A program made the position numbers and the translations under genes. From Charina bottae (lineage: Eukaryota; Chordata; Lepidosauria; Squamata; Charinaidae): a DNA stretch of 64,000 nt. Below the pieces are notes generated by a model. That model saw only the letters and a list, made by a program, of their open reading frames with translations. It did no database searches and was not told where the DNA came from. The stretch covers positions 57,430,914 through 57,494,913 of the forward strand of contig JALMGJ010000002.1 of NCBI GenBank assembly GCA_023362775.1. The letters are read 5' to 3'. This document shows positions 1-57,750 of the stretch, one piece after another. Each line of letters begins with the position of its first letter. Position 1 is the stretch's first letter.

Positions 1-216
1 GGCTGGAGCACACACACATCAGCCGGGGGGACAAGGGGCGGGGATGGAGGGGATGGAGGCCCACCACTGACCCATCCCCCTCAGGCTTGGCCGAGGGAGG
101 AAGGAGAGGCTTGGCTGAGGGAGGAAGGAGAGTCACTGCTGCTGCCGCCGCCGCCATCGCACAGTAGAAACAGGAGCTGGCCGAGCTAGGGGACTTCAGC
201 CACACCACTCCACCCC
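1..216. other. GC-rich stub, unassigned
   Basis: This stretch is GC- and purine-rich. It holds a short imperfect tandem duplication (GGCTTGGCYGAGGGAGGAAG type, about 84-128) and a run of CTG/CCG-like triplets near 138-157. No reading frame or known repeat is recognised. It abuts the truncated 3' side of a BovB copy, so it may be part of another element or older host sequence. Confidence 0.4.
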
Positions 217-10918: not shown

Positions 10919-10970
10919 AAGTCCAAGTCCATGAAACATATTTAGGATTCCCTTACCAACTTTGCTCAGA

Positions 10971-11006
10971 CTGAAGAAGCTCCTTGGATAAGGAGCGAAA
11001 CGTTTC
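10971..11006 (+). ncRNA. Hammerhead-like ribozyme motif of PLE-A
   Basis: CTGAAGA, then AGCTCCTT-GGAT-AAGGAGC (stem II, 7 pairs, loop around GGAT), then GAAA-CGTTTC. This fits the invariant hammerhead strands CUGANGA and GAAA. The sequence expected to form stem III is only the self-complementary ACGU, so cleavage would be expected from a two-molecule pairing rather than a single copy. Hammerheads are an established feature of Penelope-like elements; activity here is inferred. Confidence 0.65.
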
Positions 11007-11044
11007 CACTGAGAAAATAGAAGTCCAGTTGACATAATTCAAGC

Positions 11045-12145
11045 TACAGACAGGGAAAGTTGATTTGATAGCAAAGGGATATGCTTTACTAGCCTGGGGG
11101 ATCTATGCTTGATATCAAGCATTGTTATAAAAGGACAGTAACACAAACAAACTTAACACAGTCTAGTCCATGGCCCATGCTGCAGCAACAATTTTTAGAT
11201 TAAATACAAATTGTAATAATTTGGCTGCTATTTAACAACCAACACTGTTTTCATTAATTTAGAGATCGATTTGTTGTAATTATTATTGTACTGCAAGCTA
11301 CATAAATGTAACTAAGAGCCATCTTTAGTCATTGAATGACAGGATCTAATAGCTTAAAAATGGATGTCTGCCGCCAGTCTATAATGCAAATAACAGGAAA
11401 AGCAGGATAAATAGTCAATTTAGCTTTGGATGTTAAGAGGACAAACACCTGTTTTAAAGACAAGTTTGGGCTATTCGATTTGCATGCAAGTTATCCCCAT
11501 ATTGGCTACCAGCTGTTAGCATACTACAGTACTTATGTTAAATTGACTACTGAATTGCTTTACTAATAAAACTTAGTGGAGGTGTGCTTTCTGTGACAGA
11601 AGGGCTCTACATTTGAAATAATTGAAACCAATATAAGGGGATACTTCACACTGCTGTTCAAGAGGTAGGGCATTCTGTATAGTAGAATTAGGAGAACCAG
11701 AAGACTTTATAGTCCTTGTGCCCACCAAGCAGGATTCTCTGGACAGGAAACTCAAAAGAGTAACTCCTTCAGGTCTTAATAACTAGTGAGATATATAACA
11801 AGGCAGAGATTCCATTAGATTGCCAGATACCATGATGTACAGCTCTTTAATGGTTAAAAGTAACACAATTAACTAAGCTCAAAAAGTAATACTTTGAAAT
11901 AAAATTAAAGTGTACAGGTGAGTAAATGGAATAAATATTAAGCTCATTATACTATTTAATTATTTATATGCCATGGTTACTAAACAATTGTGTGTCTACC
12001 TCTGCTGTAGAAATGAGAAAGAAGTCATAATTATTGGAAGATCAGTACTAAAGCAATAGCAAATGACTGGCAATGCAAAACATTTAAAAGGGTGTCTAAA
12101 AGACTCTCAGTCCAGGAAGATATGAAAACGTGTTTCCATATTAAG
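11045..12145. other. No recognisable feature
   Basis: AT-rich DNA with short frames only; nothing assignable. Confidence 0.55.
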
Positions 12146-20312: not shown

Positions 20313-20408
20313 GTTAGTAACTGTTATATGTCTATGAAGGTTCTCAGTCATCCAGGTGGAATTGTCTGTAGCTTGAATCATGTCAACTGGATTTCTATTT
20401 TCTCAGTG

Positions 20409-20444
20409 GAAACGTTTCGCTCCTTATCCAAGGAGCTTCTTCAG
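20409..20444 (-). ncRNA. Hammerhead-like motif, left arm of palindrome
   Basis: On the minus strand: CTGAAGA, stem II AGCTCCTT/AAGGAGC with a GGAT loop, GAAA, CGTTTC. Identical to the right-arm copy. In one transcript the two arms would pair with each other, which should compete with hammerhead folding. Confidence 0.6.
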
Positions 20445-20445
20445 A

Positions 20446-20481
20446 CTGAAGAAGCTCCTTGGATAAGGAGCGAAACGTTTC
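20446..20481 (+). ncRNA. Hammerhead-like motif, right arm of palindrome
   Basis: Same core as at 10971-11006, with both invariant strands and an unmismatched stem II. It lies in the PLE terminal repeat, where Penelope hammerheads are known to occur. Confidence 0.65.
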
Positions 20482-20775
20482 CACTGAGAAAATAGAAATC
20501 CAGTTGACATGATTCAAGCTACAGTTAGTAACTGTTACTTTCTCCTCTTAACTTAGGAGGGCTAAGCATATTGAAAATTGAGCAGCAAAGGATGGTTGTA
20601 CTTTAAAGGAATATGAATCAGATGGTTTATCAGTTGCTGTTAACAGATTTTATTAATGACTTATGATATTTTATTGCTCTTTTTCTTGATTTTTTAGAAA
20701 TATTAAATGTTTTAAAACTGGATAATATAGCCAGAAAAGTTCAATTCCTAGGTAGAATATATGTCTGATGAATGA

Positions 20776-28968: not shown

Positions 28969-29221
28969 GCAGCTTCATATATTGAAGAATCTGGATGGAC
29001 ATAACATGATGTGTGCCAGTTGCAGTTAGGAAAATCTTAGCAACAGAATGTTGAATACAAGATAATGCACAAGCATCTGAACAACCTGTAGAAGCCCCCA
29101 TTGTCAGGGAGATAACGGGTGACGAAGGAGGGGGCTCCATCCAGGAGGGGAAGCACATGCGTAGTACTGAATTGCTATCTGTAGCTTGAATCATGTCAAC
29201 TGGATTTCTATTTTCTCAGTG

Positions 29222-29257
29222 GAAACGTTTCGTTCCTTATCCAAGGAGCTTCTTCAG
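29222..29257 (-). ncRNA. Hammerhead-like motif of PLE-A
   Basis: Minus strand: CTGAAGA, AGCTCCTTGGATAAGGAAC, GAAA, CGTTTC. One base of stem II differs from the other copies (AAGGAAC for AAGGAGC), weakening a G-C pair. The invariant core is retained. Confidence 0.55.
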
Positions 29258-29355
29258 TCTGAGCAAAGTTAGTAAGGGAATCCTTAAATATGTTTCTAGG
29301 TGGCTGTGTGACCTTGCACCTGGTGCTAGGTCATGGTTATTTTGAGATGTTATTT

Positions 29356-29620
29356 CTAAGTCCCTTTATCATCTAAAGGAGGATCGTTAAGATCACCATG
29401 CTGCTGTTGAGCTTGCGAAATGGTCTTAATCTTCCTAGGCACAGAAGACAAAGCAGGAAAGAAAATAGGGGAAAGATTGTGCCTGAGGCCCCCACCTCTA
29501 TTCAAGGAAGGATTTTCCAAGTTGGCATAAATGGATTCCTTGACCCCTCTCCCAAACCACCTATCTTCTCTGTCTAAAATGTGAACATTTATGTCCTCAA
29601 ATGAGTGTCCTTTTTCCTTT
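29356..29620 (-). pseudogene. PLE-A ORF C-terminus beyond the BovB insertion
   Basis: Directly after the 12-bp TSD the Penelope frame resumes with GHSFEDINVHILDREDRW and RGVKESIYANLENPSLNRGG, the conserved C-terminus of Penelope proteins after GIY-YIG. It ends at a TAG (29358-29356). With one TSD copy removed the two parts join without a frame change or stop, so BovB landed in an otherwise open frame. The same C-terminal coding sequence begins the fragment at 9006-9115. Confidence 0.88.
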
Positions 29621-29628
29621 GTTGTTGT

Positions 29629-32424
29629 TTATTCGTTCAGTCGTTTCCGACTCTTCGTGACTTCATGGACCAGTCCACGCCAGAGCTTTCTGTCGGCCGT
29701 CACCATCCCCAGCTCCCCAATGGTTGAGTCCGTCACCTCCAGAATAGCATCCATCCATCTTGCCCTTGGTCGGCCCCTCTTCCTTTTGCCTTCCACTTTC
29801 CCTAGCATCAGCTTCTTCTCCAGGGTATCCTGTCTTCTCATTATGTGGCCAAAGTACTTCAGTTTTGCCTTTAATATAATTCCCTCAAGTGAGCAGTCTG
29901 GCTTTATTTCCTGGAGTATGGACTGGTTTGATCTTCTTGCAGTCCAAGGCACTCTCAGAATTTTCCTCCAACACCACAGTTCAAAAGCATCTATCTTCCT
30001 TCGCTCAGCCTTCCTTATGGTCCAGCTCTCACAGCCATAGGTTACTACGGGGAATACCATTGCTTTAACTATGTGGACCTTTGTTGTCAGTGTGATGTCT
30101 CTGCTCTTAACTATTTTATCAAGTTTTGCCATTGCTCTCCTCCCAAGAAGTAGACGTCTTCTGATTTCCTGGCTGCAGTCAGCGTCTGCAGTAATATTTG
30201 CGCCTAGAAATACAAAGTCTGTCACTGCCTCCACTTTTTCTCCCTCTATTTGCCAGTCATCAATCAAGCTCGTTGCCATAATCTTGGTTTTTTTGAGGTT
30301 TAACTGCAACCCAGCTTTTGCACTTTCTTCTTTCACCTTCGTCATAAGGCTCCTCAACTCCTCCTTGCTTTCCGCCATCAAAGTGGTATCATCTGCATAT
30401 CTGAGATTGTTAATGTTTCTTCCAGCGATTTTAACTCCAGCCTTGGATTCCTCAAGCCCAGCATGTCGCATGATGTGTTCTGCGTACAGGTTGAATAGGT
30501 AGGGTGAGAGTATACAGCCCTGCCGTACTCCTTTCCCAATCTTAAACCAGTCCGTTGTTCCGTGCTCTGTTCTTACCGTTGCTACTTGGTCGTTATACAG
30601 ATTCCTCAGGAGGCAGACAAGATGACTTGGTATCCCCATACCACCAAGAACTTGCCACAATTTGTTATGATCCACACAGTCAAAGGCTTTAGAATAGTCA
30701 ATAAAACAGAAATAGATGTTTTTCTGAAATTCCCTGGCTTTCTCCATTATCCAGCGGATATTGGCAATTTGGTCTCTAGTTCCTCTGCCTTTTCTAAACC
30801 CAGCTTGTACATCTGGCAATTCTCGCTCCATGAATTGCTGGAGTCTACCTTGCAAGATCTTGAGCATTACCTTACTGGCATGTGAAATAAGTGCCACTGT
30901 TCGATAGTTTGAACATTCTTTAGTGCTTCCCTTTTTTGGTATGGGGATATAAGTTGATTTTTTCCAATCTGATGGCCATTCTTGTGTTTTCCAAATTTGC
31001 TGGCATATGGCATGCATCACCTTGACAGCATCATCTTGCAAGATTTTAAACAGTTCAGCTGGGATACCATCGTCTCCTGCTGCCTTGTTATTAGCAATGC
31101 TTCTTAAGGCCCATTCAACCTCACTCTTCAGGATGTCTGGCTCTAACTCACTGACCACACCGTCAAAGCTATCTCCAATATTATTATCCTTCCTATACAG
31201 ATCTTCCGTATATTCTTGCCACCTTTTCTTGATCTCTTCTGCTTCTGTTAGGTCCTTACCATCTTTGTTTTTGATCATACCCATTTTTGCCTGGAATTTA
31301 CCTCCGATGTTTCTAATTTTCTGGAAGAGGTCTCTTGTCCTTCCTATTCTATTGTCTTCTTCCACTTCCGCACATTGCTTGTTTAAAAATAATTCCTTAT
31401 CTCTTCTGGCTAACCTCTGGAATTTTGCATTTAATTGGGCATATCTCCCCCTATCACTGTTGCCTTTTGCTTTCCTTCTTTCTTGGGCTACTTCCAGTGT
31501 TTCAGCAGACAGCCATCTTGCCTTCTTGGTTTTCTTTTTCTTTGGGACGTTTTTTGCTGCCTCCTCCTGAACAATGTTGCGAACTTCTGTCCATAGTTCT
31601 TCTGGGACCCTATCTACTAAATCTAGTCCCTTAAATCTATTCTTCACCTCCACTGCATATTCCTTAGGAATATTAGTGAGCTCATATCTAACTGATCTGT
31701 GGGTCTTCCCTATTCTCTTTAGTCTGATTCTAAATTTTGCAATAAGAAGTTCGTGATCTGAACTACAGTCAGCTCCAGGTCTTGTTTTTACCGACTGTAT
31801 AGATGTCCTCCACCTTTGGCTGCAAAGGATGTAGTCAATCTGATTTCGGTGTCGACCATCTGGTGAAGTCCATGTATAAAGTCGTCTTTTAGGTTGTTGG
31901 AAGAGAGTGTTTGTTATGCACAGTGAGTTGTCTTGGCAAAATTCTATCAGCCTATGTCCTGCTTCATTTTGTTCTCCCAGACCATGCTTGCCTGTAATTC
32001 CAGGTGTCGTCTGACTACCCACCTTAGCATTCCAGTCTCCTGTAATGAAAATAACATCTCTTTTTGGTGTATTATCTAGTAGGTGCTGCAGATCCTCATA
32101 GAACTGATCTACTTCTGCTTCTTCAGCATCTGTGGTTGGGGCGTATATTTGGATCACTGTGATGTTAAATGGCTTACCCTGAATTCGAATTGAGATCATT
32201 CTATCGTTTTTTGGATTGTATCCAAGCACTGCTTTAGCCACTTTATTATTAATTATGAAGGCTACTCCATTTCTTCTGTGGTCCTCTTGTCCACAGTAGT
32301 AGATCTGGTGGTCATCTGATGTGAAGTGGCCCATCCCAGTCCATTTCAGTTCACTGACACCTAAAATGTCTATATTTAATCTTGACATCTCACCAATAAC
32401 CACATCCAATTTGCCCTGGCTCAT
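29629..32424 (-). CDS. BovB endonuclease-reverse transcriptase, open 931 codons
   Basis: Encodes the enzyme that nicks DNA and reverse-transcribes BovB RNA in place. APE-type endonuclease motifs: ELKWTG (about residue 25), TGDWNAKVG (about 125) and SDHELL (about 222). RT motifs: YRTVALISHASKVMLK, YFCFIDYSKAFDCVDH (about 570), GKGVRQGCILSPYLFNLY, and LRYADDTTLM with catalytic YADD at about 675 (30389-30400). The C-terminal part has AKLKYFGHIMRR and GRPRARWMD. No stop or frameshift lies between 32478 and 29629. The first ATG in this open stretch follows the endonuclease motif WNVRS, which is in frame upstream but cut off from the earlier ATG by a TGA at 32481-32479. As it stands the protein would lack the first endonuclease strand. 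Confidence 0.9.
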   Translation of the reverse strand: MSQGKLDVVIGEMSRLNIDILGVSELKWTGMGHFTSDDHQIYYCGQEDHRRNGVAFIINNKVAKAVLGYNPKNDRMISIRIQGKPFNITVIQIYAPTTDAEEAEVDQFYEDLQHLLDNTPKRDVIFITGDWNAKVGSQTTPGITGKHGLGEQNEAGHRLIEFCQDNSLCITNTLFQQPKRRLYTWTSPDGRHRNQIDYILCSQRWRTSIQSVKTRPGADCSSDHELLIAKFRIRLKRIGKTHRSVRYELTNIPKEYAVEVKNRFKGLDLVDRVPEELWTEVRNIVQEEAAKNVPKKKKTKKARWLSAETLEVAQERRKAKGNSDRGRYAQLNAKFQRLARRDKELFLNKQCAEVEEDNRIGRTRDLFQKIRNIGGKFQAKMGMIKNKDGKDLTEAEEIKKRWQEYTEDLYRKDNNIGDSFDGVVSELEPDILKSEVEWALRSIANNKAAGDDGIPAELFKILQDDAVKVMHAICQQIWKTQEWPSDWKKSTYIPIPKKGSTKECSNYRTVALISHASKVMLKILQGRLQQFMERELPDVQAGFRKGRGTRDQIANIRWIMEKAREFQKNIYFCFIDYSKAFDCVDHNKLWQVLGGMGIPSHLVCLLRNLYNDQVATVRTEHGTTDWFKIGKGVRQGCILSPYLFNLYAEHIMRHAGLEESKAGVKIAGRNINNLRYADDTTLMAESKEELRSLMTKVKEESAKAGLQLNLKKTKIMATSLIDDWQIEGEKVEAVTDFVFLGANITADADCSQEIRRRLLLGRRAMAKLDKIVKSRDITLTTKVHIVKAMVFPVVTYGCESWTIRKAERRKIDAFELWCWRKILRVPWTARRSNQSILQEIKPDCSLEGIILKAKLKYFGHIMRRQDTLEKKLMLGKVEGKRKRGRPRARWMDAILEVTDSTIGELGMVTADRKLWRGLVHEVTKSRKRLNE

Positions 32425-32478
32425 AGATCTTACATTCCAGGTTCCTATGGTGTGTTGATCTTTAGAACATCGGATTCG

Positions 32479-32661
32479 TCATTCACCACCAGCACCGTCG
32501 GCCGCTAGCCGTCCTTTCGGCTTTGAGCTAGCTGCGTCATCACATCTGGGGCTAGTTGAACGTATCCTCTGTTCCTCCCCAGTAGCATTTTGACCATCTT
32601 CCGACCTGGGAGTCCCATCTTCCGATGGTATACCGACATATCTTTGGTTGTACTGATCCAT
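32479..32661 (-). pseudogene. BovB ORF N-terminal piece ended by TGA
   Basis: Begins MDQYNQRYVGIPSEDG and runs through GQNATGEEQR and SSKPKGRL, parallel to the N-terminal stretch of the older copy at 1-2.5 kb (VQNATGEERR, GPKPKGRS). It ends in a TGA at 32481-32479, exactly in frame with the 931-codon frame downstream. The older copy reads through this point, so the TGA is a private nonsense change. Confidence 0.8.
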
Positions 32662-32842
32662 TTAGTTTTCATGGCAAGAATACTGGGGTGGGTTGCCATT
32701 ACCTTCCCCAGGGATCGTATTTAGTCTGACCTCTCTGCCACGACCTTCCCGTCTTGGGTGTCCCTTCACGGTTTAGCTCATGGTTTCATTGAGGTGCTCA
32801 AGCTCCAGCACCACGACAAGGTAACGATCTCCTTTGCTGGAG

Positions 32843-33621
32843 CCTTTTTCCTTTAGATGAAGATAAACTGCTGACTCTGGTCCTGTGGTGTTACTTCTCC
32901 TGTGTTGGGCCATCCTCCTGTACAAAGGTTGTTTGCTTTCTCCAATGTAGAGTTCAGAGCACTCCTCACTGCACTGGATTGCATAAACTACATTGCTTTT
33001 CTTGTGTTTTGGAGTTTGATCTTTGGGGTGTACAAGCCTCTGTCTCAGTGTGTTGGTGGGTTTGAAATATACAGGTATGTGGTGTTTGCCAAATATCCTT
33101 TTTATCTTTTCAGACACGCCAGCCATGTAAGGAATGACCAGGTTCTTCCGTTTACTCTGAGTCTCAGCCCTATCTGTCGCTGTTTTAGGTCTGGTAGATT
33201 TAGATTTAGTGAAGGCCCAATTTGGATATCCACAGGCCTTCAAAGCTGTTCTCAGGTGCTGATTTTCATTCTTTTTGGAATCCATGGAGGTGGGGATGGT
33301 TTCTGCTCTGTGTGACAATGTCCTGATGACTCCTAGTTTGTGCTGCAGTGGATGGTGGGAGTCAAACATCAGATATTGATCTCTGTGTGTGGGTTTCCTG
33401 TAGATCCCTATTTCTAGCTTGCCACCGGTCCCAATGAGGACTTCACAGTCTAGGAATGCCAGTCTGTTGTCCTTGGTGTCTTCTCTGGTGAACCTAATGT
33501 TGGCATCTATAGTGTTTATATGGTCCGTGAAGGCCTGTACTTCCTGGGCCTTGATTTTGACCCAGGTGTCATCCACATACCTAAACCAGTGGGTGGGCAC
33601 TGTTCCCTGGAATGTGACTCA
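32843..33621 (-). pseudogene. PLE-A reverse transcriptase end plus GIY-YIG domain (5' part of split ORF)
   Basis: The frame enters in the RT palm with HWFRYVDDTWVKIK, the YVDD catalytic box. It continues through FTREDTKDNRLAFLDCEV and IYRKPTHRDQYLMFDSHHPL (thumb region typical of Penelope RT). A linker precedes VYAIQCSEECSELYIGESKQ, the GIY-YIG nuclease, with RMAQHRR and SAVYLHLKEKG helices. It is truncated before the RT fingers, so it has no native start; the GTG at 33600 is not a true initiator. At 32854-32843 the frame runs into the BovB 5' UTR, adding about 20 foreign codons before a stop. It continues in frame at 29620-29356. Confidence 0.9.
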
Positions 33622-33670
33622 ATTCCACCTGGATGACTGAGAACCTTCATAGACATACTGAATTGCTATG

Positions 33671-41464: not shown

Positions 41465-41629
41465 AATTCAGTATTCCCATTGGTAGGAATGTTCCAATAA
41501 TGCTACTTCCTGGCTCTTGTTGTTAACAAGTGAATTTACTTCCCCTTTTACTTGGAGTAGGGATGAGGGGATTTTTGGTACTCCGTGATCTGAGGTGGTC
41601 AAAAAATTGATGGAACAACAGTGGTTATG

Positions 41630-42262
41630 GTTGTTGTGGGTTTTCCGGGCTGCGTGGCCATGTTCTGGCAGTTTTGGTTCCTAACGTTTTGCCAGTTGCT
41701 GTGGCTGGCATCTTCAGAGGACAGAAGCACAGCTAGAAGATTCCGTCTGTGCCCAAGTGGAGGGTGTGTGTTCCTGCTGGTGTTTATAACTGCTGAGAGG
41801 GTGTGTGTCTTCTGTGGGTCATTTACAAGAGATTAGGAGAGGGTTTATTGTGGTGATTAGGGGATGTGGTGCTGTCATGTGTGGGATTAGCACATCTATT
41901 ATGTGAGTTGTTTGTATATTTCTGTGGTTGAGTAGAGTTCATTGAATTTTAAGCTTTCTTCTTTTTTATTGAAACTGTTGGTGTTTATGTATTTCAATGG
42001 CTTCCCTGTATAGTCTAACATAGTGGCTGTTGGTGTTGTCCAGTATTTCTGTGTTTTCAAATAAGATTTGGTGACCAGTTTGTTTGAGAACACACCCTCC
42101 ACTTGGGCACAGACAGAATCTTCTAGCTGTGCTCCTGTCCTCTGAAGATGCCAGTCACAGCAACTGGCGAAACGTTAGGAACCAAAACTGCCAGAACATG
42201 GCCACAAAGCCCAGAAAACCCACAACAACCATTGGATTCCAGCCGTGAAAGCCTTCGACTAT
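41630..42262. mobile_element. Short PLE-B insertion with inverted 3' ends
   Basis: A 633-bp insertion with the 15-bp duplication ACAACAGTGGTTATG at 41615-41629 and 42263-42277. The left part (41630-41790) is the PLE-B 3' end inverted and the right part (42090-42236) is the same end in plus orientation. Between them the minus strand carries the last GIY-YIG codons and 3' UTR seen at 5000-5250. The right terminus has GCCGTGAAAGCCTTCGAC, the terminal extension of this PLE family. The two arms could fold back on each other. Confidence 0.9.
42142..42176 (+). ncRNA. Hammerhead-like motif of PLE-B
   Basis: CTGAAGA, TGCCAG-TCACAGCAA-CTGGC (stem II, about 5 pairs), GAAA, CGTTAGG. Both invariant strands are intact. 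The inverted copy near 41680-41712 has AAAA in place of GAAA and should be inactive. Confidence 0.6.
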
Positions 42263-57502: not shown

Positions 57503-57750
57503 AGCCAGTTTGGTCTAGTGGTTAAGGCAACGGGCTAGAAACCAGGAGACTGTGGGTTCTAGTCCCGCCTTAGGCATGAAAGCCAGCTGGGTGACCTTGG
57601 GCCAGTCACTCTCTCAGCCCAACCCACCTAACAGGGTTGTTGTTGTGGGGAAAAGAGGAGGAGGAAGGAGTATTAGGTATGTTCCCCACCTTGAGTTATT
57701 TATAAAAATAATAAAGGCGGGATAAAAAATAAATAAATAAAATAAATAAA
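57503..57750 (+). mobile_element. MIR-like SINE, full length reference copy
   Basis: tRNA-like head GAGCCAGTTTGGTCTAGTGG with A box and GTGGGTTCTAGTCCCGCC B box. The core GCTGGGTGACCTTGGGCCAG is comparable to the mammalian MIR core GTGACCTTGGGCAAGTCAC. GTTGTTGTTGTGGGG, GAGTTATTTATAAAAATAAT and an AATAAATAAATAAA tail follow. The tail resembles the local L2 terminus, suggesting L2 mobilisation as in MIR. Confidence 0.92.

Follow-up and report, generated by a model that had tools for sequence, protein, structure and literature searches.

LINE-1 twin priming, in which both target strands prime reverse transcription on one RNA, gives rise to inverted segments; only a minority of insertions take this course, and where the second primer lands varies. 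The described systems closest to the locus considered here are Penelope-like elements. In Anolis carolinensis, the protein of the element Poseidon (PAc) cuts and extends both strands of its target, and the element possesses two adjacent internal RNA start sites, with the intervening sequence forming its tail (PMC11167929). Target priming was demonstrated in vitro in that 2024 study, and the accessible part of its text leaves the later steps unvalidated (PMC11167929). Penelope copies of the rotifer Adineta vaga are described as having terminal repeats in inverted orientation, one of them with a tail, together with an inverted repeat 37 bp short of full length, palindromes at the junctions and target duplications of 8-10 bp (PMC3846280). 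The 2013 report on these copies, in its accessible portion, favors self-priming on an antisense template and calls for deciding experiments (PMC3846280). The insertion mechanism of Penelope-like elements is therefore unsettled, with self-priming advanced for the rotifer and target priming observed in vitro for the anole.

Inverted ends and a tail are already known for Penelope, and the locus that we describe here, from Charina bottae, adds copy-by-copy evidence on the mechanism. It lies in a stretch of 64,000 nucleotides that was analyzed as a whole and is referred to below as the window. The locus is a short palindrome, and it is probably a Penelope-like insertion produced by dual target-primed reverse transcription.

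Anatomy of the Palindromic Insertion

The palindrome comprises two arms of 79 nt (20366-20444 and 20446-20524) that are 100% complementary, free of mismatches and separated by 1 nt, as found by a repeat search and by direct reading. By the same two means, identical 14-bp target-site duplications, GTTAGTAACTGTTA, were located on both sides of the insert, the left copy at 20313-20326 and the right copy at 20524-20537 (both on the plus strand). An earlier note on this DNA had claimed a perfect palindrome with a 14-bp duplication of its own, and in this it was borne out. The duplications enclose an inserted unit of 197 bp (20327-20523), since positions 20327-20365 are a 39-nt extension of one arm; base 20524 both ends the right arm and starts the right duplication, so that either 78 or 79 nt of that arm are element sequence. 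The insert is accordingly asymmetric: one arm runs on for the 39 nt of 20327-20365 before it meets its duplication, and the other abuts its duplication directly.

In element sense, which is the minus strand, the tail-bearing arm (20366-20444) carries the CTGAAGA...GAAA motif, reads CTGAAGA...CTACAG and continues into ACAATTCCACCTGGATGACTGAGAACCTTCATAGACATA. The extension, hereafter the tail (20327-20365, minus strand), contains the 25-mer CACCTGGATGACTGAGAACCTTCAT. The centre base at 20445 is T in tail sense by locus reading, and the tail-less arm occupies 20446-20523 on the plus strand, as delimited by the repeat search and by the palindrome loci considered below. An outer start of reverse transcription would lie at the 20327 end of the tail, and an inner start at the 20523 end of the tail-less arm. 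The earlier description of two head-to-head hammerhead ends was thus correct as to the core motif in each arm and overlooked the one-sided 39-nt tail.

Family Identity and Other Copies in the Window

The terminal sequence of the palindrome recurs in the window as three further pieces, at 10971-11052, 29169-29257 and 33620-33657. The latter two are the ends of a single insertion (29166-33669, minus strand), which is bounded by duplications of ACTGAATTGCTAT at 29166-29178 and 33657-33669 and consists of two arms, a long one that is antisense and tail-less and one (33620-33656) made up of tail alone. This copy matches the palindrome at 95.5% over 89 nt of the arm and at 100% over 38 nt of the tail. 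Within it, a 275-aa ORF fragment (32773-33600, minus strand) encodes a domain of the GIY-YIG endonuclease type (PF01541, above cut-off at E 1.6e-5) together with RYVDDTWV, a string that we take to be a reverse-transcriptase motif; a Pfam search of this truncated ORF gave no reverse-transcriptase domain match, the string itself being present. Because this copy carries both the GIY-YIG ORF and RYVDDTWV, we regard the family as Penelope-like. Several attributes of endonuclease-bearing Penelope elements are found here, namely a GIY-YIG ORF in a copy with the same terminal sequence, terminal repeats that are often inverted and have a tail on one, and a target duplication of about 10 bases (14 bp at 20313-20537, with a mode of 13). 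The view that the palindrome is a minimal Penelope-like product without coding sequence, which entered its target in one piece and has its own duplication, is supported.

The same copy is interrupted by a LINE (window 29620-32843, minus strand) with a 931-aa ORF containing RVT_1 and exonuclease-endonuclease domains; this LINE looks BovB-like. An internal-deletion derivative was considered and rejected, as the jump from -3585 to -362 on the window copy is this inserted LINE; element coordinates were converted arithmetically. The third copy (10933-11052, plus strand), recognized by its match to the terminal sequence, is a tail-less arm alone, for which no visible partner arm or clear duplication was found in the 64-kb window; it is either an exception to the rule of one tail per insertion described below or the remnant of a later deletion.

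Hairpin and microRNA families were likewise rejected, all 65 listed matches (E<=10) falling below the gathering score; such matches arise because perfect palindromes attract microRNA models. Elsewhere in the window there is a further inverted repeat (41627-41769 and 42090-42232) of 143 nt, 95% complementary and 320 nt apart, and a tRNA-like match at 57504-57576 (plus strand) of 34.7 bits (gathering score 29).

One Tail per Insertion in the Sampled Loci

A search of the Charina bottae assembly (1.80 Gb, 278 contigs) returned 31,006 exact copies of the tail 25-mer, 55,338 of the inner-end 19-mer and 438 of the 25-base palindrome centre, with 0 for reversed controls. As the exact centre recurs 438 times and its reversed but not complemented control is absent, a chance origin of the palindrome is excluded. 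Loci were then sampled from one contig (C1), the window excepted.

The palindrome sample consisted of 50 of the 438 centre places together with the window locus. Exactly one tail was present at 50 of these 51 loci and two tails at none; the remaining locus, L024, has no tail, and on one side it shows neither tail nor inner end. L028 and L029 are one palindrome insertion lying in a duplicated stretch of C1, with some 0.39 Mb between its two occurrences, and the 51 loci therefore represent 50 distinct insertions (49 of 50 one-tailed) when this pair is counted once. A terminal-inverted-repeat DNA transposon or MITE was rejected on these grounds, since symmetric ends are required and the ends differ by the tail at 50 of 51 loci. 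Around a second centre, GAAACGTTTC, 25 places with the exact centre were listed on C1, and the first 20 of these gave one tail in 20/20 and a duplication in 19/20. The earlier note had proposed a genome search for other insertions of the same inverted form with target-site duplications, and this architecture proved common, with 50 distinct examples at the same centre and 20 at the second.

Two further samples were not chosen for palindromes. Among 90 loci chosen by the tail (30 with 1.5 kb upstream fetched, 60 with 0.6 kb), an inverted, tail-less inner end lay upstream in 54 and a duplication directly at that end in 51 within the stretch fetched; in none of the 54 did one insertion have two tails. 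With 1.5 kb, 24 of 30 loci show the tail-less inverted partner, three more (L052, L059, L060) have a head-to-head neighbor farther off, L064 has an inverted arm, and at L053 and L073 neither a duplication nor a partner arm was found within the 1.5 kb. With 0.6 kb, the partner is present in 30 of 60, and the other 30 have none in reach. An apparent two-tail insertion at L100/L101 was rejected, as it is one insertion nested within an older copy.

The second of these samples took the first 100 inner motifs and scored neighbors within 5 kb; it overlaps the tail-chosen sample in covering the same first megabases of C1. Neighbors were head-to-head (-+) in 36 cases, (++) in 2 and (+-) in 1. In retrozymes, hammerheads bound repeats arranged directly in tandem, and this preponderance of inverted neighbors differs from that arrangement; a retrozyme or circular-RNA origin was rejected because the arms are inverted, not direct. 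Exactly one exact tail accompanies 31 of the 36 head-to-head pairs, and two accompany none. Duplications confirm 25 of these 31; in 5 the other end was checked in part, and 1 is a mis-pairing (1113750/1117753). In each of the remaining 5 pairs, a duplication accompanies a single mutated tail, so that one tail is shown by duplication in 30 of 36 (the 25 plus the 5 with mutated tails).

Symmetry of the Target Site

The duplications have a modal length of 13 bp (48 of 84 sites), compared with 14 bp at 20313-20537; one duplication analysis was restricted to the 40 that are free of mismatches. Where the duplication is 13 bp long (48 loci), its flanks follow the form AAC|13 nt|GTT, with A in 32, A in 33 and C in 29 on the left, and on the right G or C in 39 followed by T in 30, 27 and 25; in drawing the edges, bases equal to the first or last base of the element were excluded. 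The target is therefore close to dyad-symmetric, and since both nicks would then look alike, the asymmetry between the arms probably lies on the RNA side.

Evidence for a Shared Template of Both Arms

At four positions that distinguish subfamilies, the two arms of one insertion agree in 45/45, 33/33, 29/30 and 25/28 cases in the tail-chosen sample, counting only letters that match one of the two subfamily bases; arms drawn independently would be expected to agree at a rate of 0.50-0.68. The position with three disagreements (25/28) is a CpG. The arms also end near the same point of the template. A table of junctions, from which L067 (the same insertion as L001), L100 and L101 were left out, has 48 rows, 45 of them with both ends mapped, and the offset between arm ends is at most 25 nt in 33 of these 45; shuffled pairings reached this in a mean of 9.9 and a maximum of 22 in 100,000 shuffles. 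To judge from the subfamily bases and the shared end position, both arms derive from the same template.

The junctions themselves (n=45) show an overlap of at least 1 nt in 19, filler in 21 and neither in 5. Where the offset is 3-25 nt, the tail-less arm is the longer in 20 of 26, and where it is larger, in 9 of 12. L070 and L080, both within the count of 20/26, have one common inverted junction that includes a 4-nt filler, which may indicate that an inverted copy was transcribed and re-inserted. At L055, L121, L025 and L045, the fillers appear to have been copied back and forth from neighboring arm sequence, and they look like the products of template-switching end joining.

Proposed Mechanism of Insertion

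The architecture, the single tail per insertion, the same-subfamily arms with nearly equal template stops, the duplication and the target symmetry can all be read from the sequence itself, and we propose the following route to them. The endonuclease would cut both target strands about 13 nt apart, and each target 3' end would prime cDNA synthesis on the same sense RNA, one cDNA beginning at the inner start (the tail-less arm) and the other at an outer start some 37 nt more 3' (the tail arm). Both cDNAs would proceed toward the RNA 5' end, and their 3' ends would be joined through short complementarity or by end joining. Should both cDNAs have stopped at the self-complementary TCAGaCTGA, they could anneal and form a perfect palindrome such as that at 20327-20523. 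We infer that both target strands prime, that they do so on one RNA molecule, and that use of the inner site comes first, in which order the outer cDNA must displace the inner one. The use of each start once would then be natural, because after a first cDNA has been primed at the inner site just the outer region of the RNA is free; displacement by the second cDNA also agrees with the existence of a tail-only arm (33620-33656) and with tail arms being the shorter.

The Palindrome Centre and Alternative Explanations

The element reads CTCAGaCTGA in the copies at 10933 and 29179, and an antisense cDNA would therefore end in TCAGtCTGA. Two such cDNAs would anneal save for one T.T mismatch, and T or A should consequently be equally frequent at the centre. 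This was examined in 45 distinct well-formed palindromes, from which the 5 of 51 loci with at least 10 arm mismatches (including L024) and also L028 had been left out. In tail sense the centre base is T in 24 and A in 21, a ratio as expected of a T.T mismatch between two annealed cDNAs; with L028 retained, the ratio is 24:22 (n=46). Four positions in the arms divide the palindromes into nine haplotypes, and T and A centres are mixed within all six haplotypes that have at least two loci. The earlier note read a perfect palindrome as a young one, which is a weak argument: 29 of the 45, including 20327-20523, have identical arms over 76 compared bases.

Self-priming, in which the 3' end of a single cDNA (or an antisense RNA) snaps back and is extended on its own strand to give the second arm, is the alternative to which we give most weight, and we nevertheless judge it unlikely. 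Identical arms would follow from it automatically, many junctions have loop-like offsets of 6-21 nt, some with 2-3 nt of terminal pairing, and a loop could also produce the offset asymmetry by which the tail-less arm is longer in 20/26; the rotifer report, moreover, favors self-priming that starts from palindromes at inverted junctions (PMC3846280). Yet just one arm has the tail, which abuts the opposite end of the target, so that a second priming event seems to be needed anyway, and the 1-nt spacer of the 438 palindromes is too tight for a hairpin loop. The single polarity of snap-back further predicts mostly one centre base, against the observed T:A of 24:21 (P <0.001). With the polarity of the other junctions assumed, the probability of T in at most 24 of 45 is 4e-4 for a bias of 20:6, or 8e-4 for 19:6 with L070/L080 counted once.

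Far less probable is a palindromic master copy that was transcribed and retroposed as a unit, such that the 438 palindromes would form one non-autonomous family. The same centre throughout speaks for it, as does the common junction of L070/L080 with its 4-nt filler, a sign that inverted copies can be re-copied on occasion. A master copy is at odds with the haplotype diversity and the mixed A/T centres just described, with the tail-less end, which varies over the same few bases, and with the duplications, which differ between loci save at the one segmentally duplicated pair.

Among the points in favor of dual priming is the concentration of palindromes at particular centres. The second centre, GAAACGTTTC, accounts for 169 copies of a gapped pattern, with the exact centre in 39 of the 50 matches listed. 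Two control sites, queried with patterns close to, though not formally identical with, that of the main centre, gave 68 and 47 junctions, compared with 438 at TCAGaCTGA and 169 around GAAACGTTTC, and no single dominant centre among the matches listed. Both hot centres are among five short segments with self-complementary arms of at least 4 in the region -340..+80 of the window copy. A hot spot was predicted at a third self-complementary site, CCAACTTGG (-263), and the genome count there was 2 palindromes only; self-complementarity alone therefore makes no hot spot, and frequent template ends seem to be needed as well.

The Hammerhead Motif

A hammerhead core has the form CUGANGA ... stem II ... 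GAAA. Direct reading finds CTGAAGA, stem II and GAAA in each arm, which confirms what the earlier note had reported as CUGAAGA - stem II - GAAA; the arms thus contain the core, with a stem II of 7 bp in the predicted fold. A search of Rfam (E<=10) detected no hammerhead family in the palindrome or in the copy 10925-11060. By analogy with the anole element, the cleavage site is predicted between arm positions 34 and 35 (PMC11167929).

The earlier note also suggested that the insertion was possibly primed from a processed terminal-repeat RNA; that a hammerhead-processed RNA of this kind was the template is an explanation that we find hardly credible. Both arms run through 34|35, so that the template RNA would have been uncleaved at the predicted site; indeed, at 20327-20523 both reach about 34 nt past it. 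The GAAACGTTTC centres likewise require template upstream of that point, and catalytic mutants of the anole ribozyme are reported to leave insertion in vitro unaffected (PMC11167929). On the other side, 7 of the 66 arm ends within -60..80 in the tail sample are at positions 33-35, adjoining the predicted cleavage; this observation, made post hoc, hints at occasional use of cleaved RNA as template. The tail-less arm of the palindrome at L048 begins inside the element next to the predicted cut, and the 3' terminus of a cleaved RNA may have been where it was primed. The accompanying proposal that the halves were joined by a template switch survives in part, as a switch from strand to strand, without the processed terminal-repeat RNA.

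Although perfect palindromes are a known assembly error, a fold-back artefact has a negligible probability, as direct duplications bound the insert, one arm has an extra tail, and the same form recurs in 50 distinct sampled insertions at this centre and in 20 at the second.

Comparison With Known Systems

The same account may extend to Penelope-like elements as a rule: a symmetric double cut, both strands priming one RNA and two fixed starts used once each, with inverted repeats and an optional tail as the direct footprint of insertion and not of self-priming, ribozyme processing or rearrangement. We regard this generalization as moderately probable. Points against dual priming are the -263 site, the asymmetric offsets, the loci L024, L048, L053 and L073, and the partnerless copy at 10933-11052. 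In addition, no start-site difference between strands was seen for the anole element in vitro, according to the available text, which counts against a model in which each start is used once (PMC11167929). A literature search, which covered titles and abstract openings and had most subscription papers outside its coverage, returned among the matches listed no report of once-each start use, a shared template end or the centre-base test.

Tens of thousands of Charina bottae copies seem to record the mechanism in their ends, where it can be counted by anyone. If the mechanism holds, it would explain the abundance of inverted pairs in such genomes, and these, if transcribed, could form double-stranded RNA.

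Animal retrozymes resemble the palindrome in being non-coding and in bearing a hammerhead-type motif (PMC7229834). They are described as direct tandem repeats of about 300 bp, whereas the Charina bottae pair is inverted (PMC7229834). The contrast with LINE-1 twin priming is that the second start of the Charina bottae family is a fixed site and that most of the closely examined copies are inverted. Like the Adineta vaga families, it displays inverted repeats, a one-sided tail, duplications and junction palindromes, its duplications (mode 13) being somewhat longer than the 8-10 bp of the rotifer (PMC3846280). The rotifer copies, as described in the accessible text, are few and were read as antisense self-priming, whereas the statistics of Charina bottae favor priming by both strands on sense RNA. 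PAc has in common with our family a GIY-YIG ORF (here in the sister copy), a terminal repeat with a hammerhead-like core and an optional tail of 30-40 nt (PMC11167929). Its terminal sequence differs from that of the Charina bottae element, and tailed and tail-less inverted arms and palindromes are not described in the available PAc text (PMC11167929). The extension of both strands by PAc and its two adjacent start sites nonetheless match the model that we propose for the Charina bottae family (PMC11167929).
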